From Mollicutes bacterium (GTDB taxonomy: Bacteria; Bacillota_I; Bacilli_A; Izemoplasmatales; Izemoplasmataceae): a stretch of 43,462 nt of DNA. Position 1 is the first letter of the stretch. The number at the start of each line of letters is the position of its first letter. Of the stretch, positions 33,612 to 42,751 are shown in pieces. Made by a program: the position numbers and the translations under genes. The stretch is taken from assembly GCA_003557505.1 (NCBI GenBank), contig PWOH01000125.1, positions 1 to 43,462 of the forward strand, written 5' to 3'. The notes beneath the pieces are model-generated. The model had not been told where the DNA came from. It made no database searches and was given only the letters and a program-made list of their open reading frames with translations.

Positions 33612-34820
33612 TTGGACGTTTATGGCTTTTTGTTGAACATCTCGATCGTATTATTGATCGGGTTTTTATTTGGGAAAATATTGGAACATTTTAAAATACC
33701 TGCTATTACCGGGTATATACTAGCAGGAGTCTTGATCGGTCCGCACGGATTAAATCTGATTGATCAGACCACGGTTTCACAGTTTAATGTTATTACCAAT
33801 GTTGTGTTGGCAATTATTGCCTACCAAATCGGAACAGAGTTGTTCATTCCAATTCTTAAACGCAATGCAGGACGTATTATTATGATTACGCTAGTGCATG
33901 CCTTTATTACCCTTGTTATAGTGTTTGGAGGGGTTTGGCTTGTTAGTGGTGAGTTATGGTTAGCCTTTGCTTTATCAGGGTTAGCGATTGCTTCGGCACC
34001 AGCTCCTGTTATGGCTATCATTAAGAAACTGCGTGCCAAGGGCCCTGTTAAAAGTACCGTTGTACCCGTTGTAGGGGTACTTGATGTTGTTGCTGTTATT
34101 GTTTTCGGGCTAACTTCAAGCATTGCTTTATCCTTAGTCGGCGGTGAAACTATCGGCATCCAAAATGCCTTATTAAACCCATTGTATGAAGTTGTTCTTT
34201 CCATATTTGTTGGGGCGATTTTCGGTGTTTTGTTAGGATTGTTTTCGCATTTTTTTGTGGAAAAATTCCGAAAACAAGATCGTTATCTTGCGTATTTGGC
34301 AGTATCATTGTCTTTTATTCTTATCGGTCTTTGGATTGCTCAAACCTTCCATCTTTCGACGATTCTCATTCCACTGACTATTGGTGTTGTGTTCACAAAC
34401 TTTGTGAATGAAGAGACCTTTGATATACAAGATGCGGCACTTAATAATTTTGGTGGACCCTTTATCATTATCTTTTTCACAATTGCCGGACTAGGGTTGA
34501 ATCCTGCGATTATGTTACAAGCAGGGTTTATTGCGCTTGTATTTATTGTTTTAAGAAGTATCGGTAAAATTTCAGGGTCTTATTTTGCGTCTACTTTATC
34601 AAAATGTCCGATGACAGTCCGTAAATATACAGGGCTTTGTCTCTTGCCTCAGGCAGGGGTTACTATCGGGATGTTAGTGGCACTCTCAGCATCATTACCA
34701 CCAGAAGAAACGCAAATTGTTCAAACCATCACACTTACAAGTATTTTGATTTTCCAAGTGGCAGGTCCGATTCTTATGAAATGGGGGCTTGAAAAAGCCG
34801 GAGAATCACGTGAGTTATAA
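33612..34820 (+). CDS. CPA2-type cation/proton antiporter, membrane domain only
   Basis: This integral membrane protein of 402 residues has about 12-13 helices and belongs to the Na+/H+ exchanger (KefB/NapA-like) superfamily. ILEHFKIPAITGYILAGVLIGPHGLNLI (24-51) is the family N-terminal signature, and paired short motifs follow through helices 4-5 and 10-11. It ends after the membrane domain, so the C-terminal TrkA-N/RCK domain of Kef channels is absent. Exchange of Na+ or K+ for H+ is inferred. It starts with TTG at 33612, 10 bases after AAAGGAG. An ATG at 33602 lies in another frame and stops after 30 codons. Confidence 0.87.
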   Translation: MDVYGFLLNISIVLLIGFLFGKILEHFKIPAITGYILAGVLIGPHGLNLIDQTTVSQFNVITNVVLAIIAYQIGTELFIPILKRNAGRIIMITLVHAFITLVIVFGGVWLVSGELWLAFALSGLAIASAPAPVMAIIKKLRAKGPVKSTVVPVVGVLDVVAVIVFGLTSSIALSLVGGETIGIQNALLNPLYEVVLSIFVGAIFGVLLGLFSHFFVEKFRKQDRYLAYLAVSLSFILIGLWIAQTFHLSTILIPLTIGVVFTNFVNEETFDIQDAALNNFGGPFIIIFFTIAGLGLNPAIMLQAGFIALVFIVLRSIGKISGSYFASTLSKCPMTVRKYTGLCLLPQAGVTIGMLVALSASLPPEETQIVQTITLTSILIFQVAGPILMKWGLEKAGESREL

Positions 34821-34828
34821 ATAGCATC

Positions 34829-34853
34829 AAATCCCTTCATCGGGATTTTTTTA
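34829..34853 (+). terminator. Antiporter gene terminator
   Basis: AAATCCC (34829-34835) pairs with GGGATTT (34842-34848), then a T-run. Confidence 0.8.
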
Positions 34854-34929: not shown

Positions 34930-34968
34930 TAATCGTAGTTTAACGTATTGAGAATGGGGAGAGGAAGA

Positions 34969-37900
34969 ATGAAAAAAATATTTGCTTTACTAGTTGTGCT
35001 ATTCGCTTCAATAGGTCTTTATGGTTGTGGAGAAGACCCAGAAGATGATGTGACAATACCCTCTTTTGATTATTTTACCATTAATGAAGATGAACCAAGT
35101 GATGAAACAATTTATGCGGAAAAAAATGAATTGTTGCGCTTGGATATTTTTATTGATAATCCATCGGATTTGGAAATCAACTCAATTCGAATTAATGGAA
35201 CAACCTATCGCCAAAGCCGCTTTGAAGCGGAATCTACGAATGAACACGTTATTTTTAATTTTGATGTATTAAGGGTACCTGGTCACAATGACTATGAACT
35301 TGAAGCCATTGAATATACACACGAAGGCGTTCAAACCTTGTTAATTAACGACAATAATACTTGGAATGCTTATGTACTCGAAAATATTCCAACGGCTTCC
35401 TTAGATAATATAATCACCGATCAAGAAAGCCTCAATGTATCAGTGAATCTCTCTGATAATGATGGTACGATTGATGAAGCGGTTTTAGAATTGTTTAAAG
35501 ATGGCAGTATTGTTGATAGTGTTGATATTACCGCCGGTATAGCGGCACAGACTTTCACAGACTTGTATAGTGACAATGATTACACTTTGCGATTGGTTGT
35601 GTCTTACGAACGTGGCGATGGCCATGAATATGTTGAAGATGAAGTTTTGGCTGAAGTAAGTGAAATTCGTACAAGTGCAAAAGCCCTTCCACAATTATCC
35701 ATCGATAATATTGTTGCTGATAAGACATCGGTAAGTTTTTCATATGATGTTGTTGATGGTGATAATGTAGGAAGCATTTCATCTATTATGCTTTATCATG
35801 ACGATGAATTTATTGAAGAAATCGATATGCTTGATTCGCTTGTATTTAGTGATTTATTATCCAATGTTGAGTATTCAATCGTAATTGAGTATACGTATGA
35901 TTTAAATGATCAAGCGGGTAGTCAAACCTTAACTACCACTGAAAACTTTACCACTGAAGCACTTGAGTCTCCAAGTGTCTCCATTGAAAATATCAGAGAA
36001 GATCATGAATCCGTGTTATTTGATATTAGTTTACAAGATGATGATGAAGTCATTTCTGCAGATTATCTCAGTGTATTGATTAAAGACGATAATGGCTTTA
36101 GTGAAGAAAAACTGGTTGATATTGATGCGTTAAGTGATATTCATTTTGATAACTTACTCAGTAACACCACCTATACAATTGAAGTTAGAGGCAGTTATGA
36201 CCTTAATGATTCTCAAGGGTCAAGAGATGATGTTTTATTACATAGTGAAACATTTACAACCGCGCAAACCGAAATTCCAGAAATGGAATCCACGCTCGTT
36301 TCATCTTCAGAAACAGAGTTAGTCATTGATATTGATGCCTCTTCATTTGATGATATCCGTGAAGGCGAACAAATTAAAATTTCAATCTATAATGAAACGA
36401 CTGATGAATTTATAAAAACATATAGTATCATTGACAGTACTGAGCGTATTAACATTAAAGATTTATTGAGTAATCAAACCATTCGTATCGAAGTAGAGGC
36501 CACTTTCAATTTACGAGATGGTGAAGGCCAACAAACAGCAATTGTTCATACCAATACCTTTACGACCACAACCACAAACGCGCCAAGTGGTAGTGTATCA
36601 AACGTTGAGACATCTCAAGAAGGCGTTTCTTTTAACTATTCATTCAGTGATTCATCGAACACTAAAGTTGAAGGTTCACTGATCGCAATCCTTTATGAGG
36701 ATCAAGGCGATGGTTCAGGCTACACTATAGTGGATACTCAAGCCATTGATCCAGCATCAAGTAGTTTCATGTTTGATTACGCGTCATATTATGACAGAGC
36801 CTACTCTGTTGAACTATTTGTGGATTACGATTTACGCGATGGTGAGGGCATTCATAGTGATCATCGCTTGGATAATGCCTTTAAATCCATACGCTTAGCA
36901 CCGAAGGCACCTGTGGGTAGTATTGAAACAGAAGCGGTAACCCACGATAGCTTCACGCTTGAATATTTAATTTTAGATATTGATGGTACCATCAACGAAG
37001 ATGGTATTACACTCACTATAGATGGTGAAACGTATACCTCCAACACACTTGATGGTGCATTCACTGTTACAGATTTACTTAGCGATACTACGTATGAGTA
37101 TGTCTTAAGTATTGAATATATTCGCGGCTCTCAAAGCTATACCTTAGAGTTTGATGGTTCATTCACAACAGATGCATTAGAAGATGCCAGTGGTGAGATT
37201 GTTGAAAGTGATCGTGCCCTTGGTGAAATTACTGTCGATGTATCGTTTGAAGACCCAGACAGCACCTTCACAGAAGATGACTTATCACTAGTCCTTTATG
37301 ACAGTGATGATGAAGTAGTGGGCGATCCTTTACTGATTTCTGAATTAGGAAGTTATACATTCGATGAACTGAAAAACAATACGGATTATACGCTGCGCCT
37401 ATATGCTACTGTTGATAAGAACGATGGTGCGGGTCCCCAAGAAGTATTACTAGATAGTTATAGTTTCACTTCAATTAACGGCGATATAGATGTAAGCATC
37501 GAAGATTCAGAAATCAATCAAGAAACCATGCATCTACGGATTGATTATACTGATGAATATGGGATTTCTGAGTTGCCACTAAAAATTGTTGTATATGATC
37601 AAGAGGATAATCCAATAAATACCTACAGAATCTATGATGGTCCGACAAGTGTTCAAATAAGTGAACTTTACTCGAATTACACGTACACAATCAATGTTTA
37701 TGGTGATGTCGATTATCAAGATGGTAGTGGTGTTGTAGAGGATGTATTATTACATTCTGAGAGTTACACAACCGAAGCCAAAGCGCAACCAATACCGGAG
37801 ATGACCATTGAAAACATTGAAGTAAATACGAGTATTTCCGTTTCTCTTGGTGAGTTTGAAGATATTGATGAAGTGTATTCTTCAATGACGTTGTATTTAT

Positions 37901-38109
37901 ATGAGCTAAACGAAGATGGAACCTATGCACCTATTGATGACATTGCCATTGACTTAAATGATGTAGAAAGCACTTATACATTTGATCACACACACGATGA
38001 AACAAGTACCTATCGCATTCAGTTACGTGCTGATTATGATCTTAATGATTCGAATACGTACGAAGATGAGATTCTAATATCTGAAAGCGTAGTCACCATT
38101 AGACCATAA
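34969..38109 (+). CDS. Large repeat-containing surface lipoprotein
   Basis: The 1,046-residue protein starts at ATG 34969 (AGGAAG upstream). The signal peptide MKKIFALLVVLFASIGLYGC ends in a lipobox-type LYGC with Cys20, so it should be lipid-anchored outside the cell. After an N-terminal domain (21 to about 145) come about nine diverged repeats of about 100 residues to the C-terminus. Each has alternating beta strands, an LLSN-T-Y-T-I-V element, and in most an acidic turn of type YDLNDGxG, visible at residues 310, 410, 513, 620, 815, 914 and 1023. Many end in FTT. The plan resembles fibronectin type III or other Ig-like beta-sandwich chains; the acidic turn could bind Ca2+. The protein is very acidic and nearly Cys-free. 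It has no catalytic domain, LPXTG or S-layer motif that I can see. Adhesion or a cell-surface stalk is inferred. Confidence 0.85.
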   Translation: MKKIFALLVVLFASIGLYGCGEDPEDDVTIPSFDYFTINEDEPSDETIYAEKNELLRLDIFIDNPSDLEINSIRINGTTYRQSRFEAESTNEHVIFNFDVLRVPGHNDYELEAIEYTHEGVQTLLINDNNTWNAYVLENIPTASLDNIITDQESLNVSVNLSDNDGTIDEAVLELFKDGSIVDSVDITAGIAAQTFTDLYSDNDYTLRLVVSYERGDGHEYVEDEVLAEVSEIRTSAKALPQLSIDNIVADKTSVSFSYDVVDGDNVGSISSIMLYHDDEFIEEIDMLDSLVFSDLLSNVEYSIVIEYTYDLNDQAGSQTLTTTENFTTEALESPSVSIENIREDHESVLFDISLQDDDEVISADYLSVLIKDDNGFSEEKLVDIDALSDIHFDNLLSNTTYTIEVRGSYDLNDSQGSRDDVLLHSETFTTAQTEIPEMESTLVSSSETELVIDIDASSFDDIREGEQIKISIYNETTDEFIKTYSIIDSTERINIKDLLSNQTIRIEVEATFNLRDGEGQQTAIVHTNTFTTTTTNAPSGSVSNVETSQEGVSFNYSFSDSSNTKVEGSLIAILYEDQGDGSGYTIVDTQAIDPASSSFMFDYASYYDRAYSVELFVDYDLRDGEGIHSDHRLDNAFKSIRLAPKAPVGSIETEAVTHDSFTLEYLILDIDGTINEDGITLTIDGETYTSNTLDGAFTVTDLLSDTTYEYVLSIEYIRGSQSYTLEFDGSFTTDALEDASGEIVESDRALGEITVDVSFEDPDSTFTEDDLSLVLYDSDDEVVGDPLLISELGSYTFDELKNNTDYTLRLYATVDKNDGAGPQEVLLDSYSFTSINGDIDVSIEDSEINQETMHLRIDYTDEYGISELPLKIVVYDQEDNPINTYRIYDGPTSVQISELYSNYTYTINVYGDVDYQDGSGVVEDVLLHSESYTTEAKAQPIPEMTIENIEVNTSISVSLGEFEDIDEVYSSMTLYLYELNEDGTYAPIDDIAIDLNDVESTYTFDHTHDETSTYRIQLRADYDLNDSNTYEDEILISESVVTIRP

Positions 38110-38126
38110 TTGATAAAAAAAGTTTA

Positions 38127-38165
38127 GCGGACGATTTCACTTTGAAATCGTCTGCTTTTTATTTT
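38127..38165 (+). terminator. Lipoprotein gene terminator
   Basis: A 13-base stem GCGGACGATTTCA / TGAAATCGTCTGC with loop CTT, then TTTTTATTTT. Confidence 0.92.
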
Positions 38166-41755: not shown

Positions 41756-41791
41756 GTAATCGAGATAATGAACTTTGAAAGGAGCCTACAC

Positions 41792-42751
41792 ATGAACGTA
41801 AAAAGTAAAGACTACAAAGCCATTCAAGATATTGATACTCATCTAAACACGATTAATGAATACAACAGTGATATTAAAGCATTAACTGAAAAAATAACTG
41901 AGTTACGACGTGTATCCCTTTCCCCATCAGACACGAATTATCCTTATGGAAAATTGTTAGATGAACGTGATGAATTTGTGGCATACCGTAATTGGTTTTC
42001 CACATTAGGCACAGCGATTATGTTTGTCTTGATCTATGCATTATTATTCGCGAGTGTAACCTTTTTAAGCCTTTTCTTTCATCGTATGGGCTATTATGCC
42101 TCACTTGCAAATTATATTGATTTCTTAACTACACGACAAACCGGTATTATTATTTCAATTGTGACGATGATTGTGGCGCTTGTTGTATTCGCTTTAACGT
42201 TTCGCCTAGCGATTGAGGGGATATTAAAATTCCAACATGCCTTCAAAAACTGGCGCTTCACAAAAAAATATAAAGCTGCACTAGAAGACGCTTACGAAAA
42301 AACACAGTCACTCATTGAAGATAAACGCCTTTCCATAAAACGCGAAATCTCTGAATTGACCACAACCAAAGAAGCGAAAGAAAGCGAAATTCGGGGCATA
42401 GAAAAGAAAATTATGGAATCTGCCAATATCCCACCACGTTTCATTGATAAAGTGCATAAAATCAAACAATATTTTGAAGAGTTCCGTGTTGATACAATTT
42501 CCGATGCGATTAATTTATTGGTGAAAGAAGAACGAGAACAATACTTCTTCGATGAACTCAAATCAAGTATCGATTCCCAACAAAACGATATTCAAGATCT
42601 TTCACAAAAATTGTCTGTGCTGCGGAAAACATTAAGTGACCCTCCGAAAAAAGAAAAAACAGAATTCGAACAAAAAGTAGAAGACAGTAAAGCCAAACGT
42701 AAAGATGCTAAAAAACAAAAAAAGAAATCCCAAAAAGTAAAAGAGGATTAG
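41792..42751 (+). CDS. Coiled-coil protein with two membrane helices, unknown
   Basis: The 319-residue protein starts at ATG 41792, where AAAGGAG is properly spaced; an ATG at 41768 lies upstream of that site. Residues 1-55 are helical and charged. Two hydrophobic segments follow at about 65-90 and 110-137. A long Lys/Glu-rich coiled coil covers about 165-290, and a strongly basic tail (KAKRKDAKKQKKKSQK) is at the end. Both termini should be cytosolic. No enzyme motif is visible. A structural or envelope-linked role is possible, but I do not recognise the family. Confidence 0.78.
   Translation: MNVKSKDYKAIQDIDTHLNTINEYNSDIKALTEKITELRRVSLSPSDTNYPYGKLLDERDEFVAYRNWFSTLGTAIMFVLIYALLFASVTFLSLFFHRMGYYASLANYIDFLTTRQTGIIISIVTMIVALVVFALTFRLAIEGILKFQHAFKNWRFTKKYKAALEDAYEKTQSLIEDKRLSIKREISELTTTKEAKESEIRGIEKKIMESANIPPRFIDKVHKIKQYFEEFRVDTISDAINLLVKEEREQYFFDELKSSIDSQQNDIQDLSQKLSVLRKTLSDPPKKEKTEFEQKVEDSKAKRKDAKKQKKKSQKVKED

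Follow-up and report, generated by a model that had tools for sequence, protein, structure and literature searches.

Lipid-anchored surface proteins with FN3 arrays are already known. TasL of Vibrio fischeri is a large putative lipoprotein that carries five FN3-like repeats near its C-terminus and mediates cell-cell contact (PMC9040878). Two further kinds of surface protein also raise a stalk of repeated domains from the cell: the fibrillar adhesins, in which a long tandem beta-sandwich stalk comes with a known adhesive domain and, in Firmicutes, this domain mostly stands at the N-terminus with a sortase anchor at the C-terminus (PMC8286594), and the periscope proteins, whose highly identical DNA repeats vary in number between strains (PMC8201768). 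The 1,046-residue lipoprotein described here, encoded in a 43,462-nucleotide stretch of Izemoplasmatales DNA that was analysed as a whole and is referred to as the window, joins the lipid-anchored kind. It is likened by description to TasL, both being large surface proteins with an N-terminal lipid anchor and FN3-type repeats distal to it, and on this analogy TasL appears to be its nearest functional precedent; unlike the window protein, TasL is set in a Gram-negative outer membrane, exceeds 380 kDa and belongs to a type VI secretion island, and no secretion genes lie beside the window gene. Like the fibrillar adhesins, the window protein has a long series of tandem beta-sandwich domains that would form a surface stalk. 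However, its polarity is reversed, and whereas fibrillar adhesin-like proteins are defined by having stalk domains and one or more known adhesive domains (PMC8286594), no adhesive domain is recognised in the window protein by Pfam at E <= 1. As in the periscope proteins there is a surface stalk of variable repeat number, but periscope proteins are defined by highly identical DNA tandem repeats (PMC8201768), whereas the window repeats are diverged at the DNA level, as the original prediction had it, with a best ungapped 150-nt self-match of 51%, and the length differs between species.

The closest equivalents of the window protein are its syntenic orthologs in the Izemoplasmatales (G002, G020, G027, G033 and others), which share with it the N-terminal domain, the FN3-like array, the lipobox and the location after dinB; they differ in carrying 5 to 26 repeats, and among the loci read the window genome alone has a Na+/H+ antiporter gene after dinB. 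No named family was found for these syntenic FN3-array lipoproteins. The original Izimaplasma genome paper aside, the searchable literature describes no lipid-anchored FN3-array protein in this lineage, and lipoproteins and fibronectin-like domains go unmentioned in the two descriptions of cultured Izemoplasmatales isolates. The features of the gene and its product follow, the FN3-like repeats having been placed by repeat profiles and the AlphaFold model.

34829..34848, + strand: intrinsic terminator of the upstream gene, a 7-bp stem followed by TTTTATTGGC
34956..34964, + strand: probable ribosome-binding site GGGGAGAGG, 5' of the ATG start (from the sequence)
34969..38109, + strand: lipoprotein gene (open reading frame), N-terminal Ig-like domain and nine FN3-like repeats, 1,046 aa
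34969..35028, + strand: signal peptide and lipobox LYGC with predicted acylated Cys20; Cys20 and Leu17 invariant in 20 orthologs
35029..35382, + strand: N-terminal Ig-like domain, residues 21-138, no Pfam family; from a separate structure prediction, with weak Foldseek matches to titin Ig
35389..35673, + strand: FN3-like repeat 1, residues 141-235
35689..35958, + strand: FN3-like repeat 2, residues 241-330, turn at residue 310
35971..36264, + strand: FN3-like repeat 3, residues 335-432, turn at residue 410
36277..36570, + strand: FN3-like repeat 4, residues 437-535, turn at residue 513
36583..36885, + strand: FN3-like repeat 5, residues 539-640, turn at residue 620
36910..37173, + strand: FN3-like repeat 6, residues 648-729, turn altered, the shortest repeat
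37189..37476, + strand: FN3-like repeat 7, residues 741-836, turn at residue 815; holds the best Pfam fn3 stretch
37489..37776, + strand: FN3-like repeat 8, residues 841-936, turn at residue 914
37795..38100, + strand: FN3-like repeat 9, the distal tip, residues 943-1044, turn at residue 1023
38126..38156, + strand: intrinsic terminator of the lipoprotein gene, 14-bp stem

Because intrinsic terminators stand on both sides, the lipoprotein gene is probably transcribed alone; the opposite strand of 34969-38109 has no long open frame. The gene that separates it from dinB in the window, at 33612-34820, is of the Na+/H+ exchanger family, and in the relatives' loci that were read the lipoprotein gene is directly 3' of dinB. 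On the other side, a 327-aa ORF at 41768-42751 with no Pfam or NCBIfam match is conserved nearby in many relatives as well.

The lipid anchor that had been predicted at Cys20 is supported by the invariance of this residue, which is the sole cysteine of the product, and by the two lipoprotein enzymes encoded in the genome by lgt and lsp (LGT 1.1e-67, Lsp 9.9e-39). Next in the domain order come residues 21-138, which were modelled alone at pLDDT 88 and pTM 0.80. Foldseek gives this domain weak Ig matches only (best E 1.4e-3, query TM-score about 0.45), its profile finds nothing in the PDB, and comparison with the repeats by hhalign returns a probability of 0.7%. By these comparisons it is a separate domain of ~115 residues, not a repeat, and Ig-like at best. 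In the class it occurs in 28 of 247 genomes, including twelve from outside the order, and it looks like a widespread domain without a Pfam entry. It is also found in tandem without FN3-like repeats at L135, L138 and L139.

Beyond this domain the protein had been described as about nine diverged repeats with a period of about 100 residues, and the array proves to contain exactly nine. Diagonal self-comparison of the protein peaks at lag 100 and its multiples, the best 40-residue diagonal scoring 102, where shuffles average 41 and reach 56 at most, and a profile seeded with the window protein's own repeats covers the array with nine domains. An independent profile, drawn from five genomes none of which is of the window's genus, recovers these nine at 343.9 bits, and no score among 200 shuffles exceeds 3.4; eight repeats have domain E-values of 2.1e-9 or lower, and repeat 6 is the weakest at 0.016. 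The predicted turn positions, residues 310, 410, 513, 620, 815, 914 and 1023, are all exact. The turn element does recur there, but the motif YDLNDGxG by which it had been described occurs literally nowhere in the window protein; it is the family consensus, found in that form in 17 of 209 family repeats.

The repeated beta-sandwich fold that had been proposed is also what structure prediction returns. The AlphaFold2 model, made from ten sequences, has a mean pLDDT of 84.5 and places seven strands in repeat 1 (142-234) with the same pattern in most other repeats, giving a sandwich A-B-C-C'-E-F-G with connectivity read from strand order; the pTM of the whole model is 0.33, and the inter-domain arrangement and the bend angles between beads are uncertain. 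The whole window protein scores 37.9 bits with Pfam fn3 (PF00041) against a curated cut-off of 25, as do four orthologs at 31.9-52.1 bits (the two best 52.1 and 50.5), and single repeats rarely match (2/60, best E 0.0016). Against solved structures in the PDB the repeat profile finds fibronectin first, weakly (E 1.2e-4), and phmmer with the whole protein finds nothing among PDB sequences at E <= 1. The best Foldseek matches for the array are tandem Ig/FN3 proteins, and those in the viral library are likewise FN3/Ig arrays only. The FN3 tyrosine corner, L-x5-Y before strand F, has an aromatic residue in the Tyr column of 8/9 window repeats and a hydrophobic one in the Leu column of 7/9. A core Trp in strand B is usual, not absolute, in FN3 domains; it is absent from the window repeats, the one Trp of the mature protein lying in the N-terminal domain, and the wording "FN3-like", for a divergent FN3 subgroup, is used for this reason. 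With the Pfam cut-off passed, a confident model and the tyrosine corner, the repeats are judged to be FN3-like.

Taken with the cell type of its host, this architecture makes it probable that the protein is a lipid-anchored surface stalk of a wall-less, free-living Izemoplasmatales cell that projects a distal binding tip. The prolipoprotein would be exported and lipidated at Cys20, so holding its N-terminus in the outer leaflet of the sole membrane with the Ig-like domain beside the membrane, and the nine FN3-like beads in series would carry the C-terminal bead outwards as a contact surface. An FN3 bead measures about 3.5 nm, and the array would span roughly 30 nm if extended as a rod, as it presumably is. 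Adhesion or ligand binding would then be the task of the distal C-terminal end. Points against this explanation are that no adhesive domain is recognised in the protein, that the gene is missing from G004 of its own genus, that G003 and G005 do without repeat 9, and that in the family as a whole the last repeat does not stand out by its conservation.

How such a rod might be kept straight bears on the acidic turn. In the model the Tyr-Asp of the motif closes strand F and strand G follows the turn, which identifies the acidic turn as the F-G hairpin loop of the FN3 fold. Possible Ca2+ sites had been suggested, but a Ca2+ loop of the standard type is not supported for the turn: the spacing D-x-[DN]-x-[DN]-G of DxDxDG-type loops is found in 1/209 family repeats, and the consensus D-x-N-D-G is without it. 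Position 1 of the F-G turn is D or N and position 4 is D in 80%, and strand B is followed at once by another acidic signature, a D-x-D with D at 91% and 63% in the family; the turn and this signature presumably share one pole of the fold. A stalk resembling RTX adhesins or cadherins, in which acidic B-C and F-G loops at this pole hold Ca2+ and rigidify the joints, is a doubtful possibility, one that could hold jointly with the surface-stalk explanation. Tandem beta-sandwich stalks stiffened by Ca2+ are known among RTX adhesins (PMC7493085). Both acidic signatures are conserved alike in the soda-lake group and in complete genomes, which speaks for such a role, but the DxDxDG spacing is nearly absent and the predicted models do not make a metal visible. 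Free Ca2+ should be very low in soda lakes, from which the nearest named relatives come, and yet the motif persists there.

The locus is fixed within the family. A match to the gene is present in 25/37 family genomes, and wherever the flanks could be read the order is xseA-dxs-(tlyA)-recN-dinB and then the lipoprotein gene, followed on the 3' side, in the window's nearer relatives where covered, by ALDH, MFS or related genes. Seven genomes (G004, G008, G009, G014, G023, G024 and G030) have no such gene at this place, ALDH lying within about 0.8 kb downstream of dinB, which makes this a clean presence/absence site; G004, which lacks the gene, is of the same genus as the window. Carriage as mobile cargo was set aside, since the lipoprotein has no match in the phage and plasmid collections searched.

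The ortholog of the sister species G002 is intact and 51% identical, and it carries the nine repeats too. Identity to it is 67% in the N-terminal domain and 68% in repeat 9, against 38-54% in repeats 1-8 and 65-82% in the flanking enzymes; being highest at the N-terminal domain and repeat 9, it suggests that both ends are constrained. Family-wide, conservation is no higher in the last repeat (0.27) than in the first ones (0.33). Complete family members stop just after the last repeat and have no second anchor, the exception being a short acidic tail in G005. Within the genus, the G003 array stops at repeat 6 and the G005 array at repeat 5, so that repeats 7-9 are missing from both, and since they do without the conserved repeat 9 the tip is not essential. 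These truncated arrays and the absence from G004 are what would be expected of a drifting, dispensable lipoprotein that is heading for loss with no current function, a reading that is very improbable given 1,046 codons held open, the intact G002 ortholog with its nine repeats, an N-terminal domain whose conservation (0.67) equals that of some flanking enzymes, and one locus kept across the family.

Repeat number varies between species, complete orthologs having 5 (G005), 6 (G003), 7, 9, 10, 11, 12, 16 (G033), 18 (G016) or 26 (G027). For 7/9 window repeats the nearest neighbour is the same-numbered G002 repeat, and for 0/9 does it lie within the window's own array; this pairing by position indicates that the array predates the split from G002 and is old. 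The original prediction of an array that is old and not slipping thus holds for the window array and fails for the family as a whole, in which G021 and G032 have exact repeats of 104-121 nt and G027 looks block-duplicated. G027 shows a six-repeat register, with lags 18 and 6 the highest among repeats 7-25 and nearest neighbours falling likewise, and G021 has an exact 121-nt repeat at a distance of 1503 bp. Judged from these sequences, array growth in G027 and G021 appears more recent than the window array.

Contig ends fall inside the gene in about ten MAGs (L040, L041, L042, L048, L049, L050, L057, L059, L060 and L061). Seven broken pairs could be compared, and long exact sharing is found only in G021 (111 nt) and G032 (104 nt), the others sharing 14 nt or less, so identical repeats were rejected as the general cause. 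Exact repeats explain the contig ends only in G021 and perhaps G032; elsewhere strain variation may be responsible.

The orthologs that carry record names come from MAGs called "Mollicutes bacterium" or Candidatus Izimaplasma, of a soda-lake sediment sample series, and from these relatives we infer that the window also comes from a soda lake. Soda-lake Mollicutes MAGs are described as free-living organisms that ferment anaerobically and resemble Candidatus Izimaplasma (PMC6146748), and the order Izemoplasmatales as being without peptidoglycan (PMC10868615). Neither a penicillin-binding transpeptidase nor a sortase was found in the window genome, which is 91% complete, so that such gene absences are not final; there is one Mur-ligase-domain protein. 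The presence of lgt and lsp and the absence of transpeptidase and sortase fit a wall-less cell with exposed lipoproteins. A second lipoprotein at L118 (G000:C85, 1075-2232), which we take by eye to be a GH16-like glucanase, has a C-terminal FN3 domain that is the sole fn3 match in this genome from the family scan; it adjoins a LacI-type regulator and an ABC permease.

The window protein is acidic (D+E 22%, K+R 4%), unlike the cytosolic neighbours that were checked, which speaks for the surface stalk. Many copies of such a protein might form a passive coat, an acidic brush protecting the naked membrane against salt, alkali, phages or predators, in which length and charge matter and no specific ligand is bound. 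This reading, which is unlikely, draws on the wall-less host, on the strong acidity of every ortholog (D+E 16-27%, K+R 3-8%), on inner repeats that diverge faster than the flanking genes and on the tolerance of 5-26 repeats. However, positional orthology and a repeat 9 constrained with respect to G002 exceed the needs of a brush, it is odd that a general shield should be cleanly missing from seven genomes, and distant proteins of the same design bear lectin or GLUG tips.

These distant proteins bring the argument back to a stalk with a binding tip. Lipoproteins with the N-terminal domain followed by FN3-like repeats occur at L129, L131, L132, L134 and L140. The one at L131 (4699-8661) ends in a C-type lectin domain above the Pfam cut-off, and lipoproteins with FN3-like arrays at L133 (3159-7319) and L136 (130-3600) end in GLUG motifs. 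Such sequences suggest that distal heads may be exchangeable among distant FN3-like-array lipoproteins, and binding-type modules at their far C-terminal ends support the C-terminus of the window protein as its working end.

The architecture itself is unsurprising, a fairly ordinary kind of surface stalk; what is notable is the fixed family locus with a drifting bead count. Sortase-anchored wall proteins are lacking in free-living wall-less bacteria, whose surface organisation is little studied, and a conserved, syntenic FN3-array lipoprotein with an unnamed N-terminal domain is a concrete candidate surface structure, for which one locus offers a natural series of 5- to 26-bead stalks. A more far-reaching proposal, advanced tentatively, makes this a core surface stalk that free-living wall-less Bacilli inherit vertically. 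A fixed post-dinB locus would encode an FN3 array, lipid-anchored at its N-terminus, whose length would evolve by block duplication, from 5 to 26 beads, and would set the stand-off from the naked membrane of a distal recognition bead or, in distant relatives, of a lectin or GLUG head. If true, the protein would be a reverse-polarity counterpart of the periscope proteins, with an undescribed membrane-proximal Ig-like domain.
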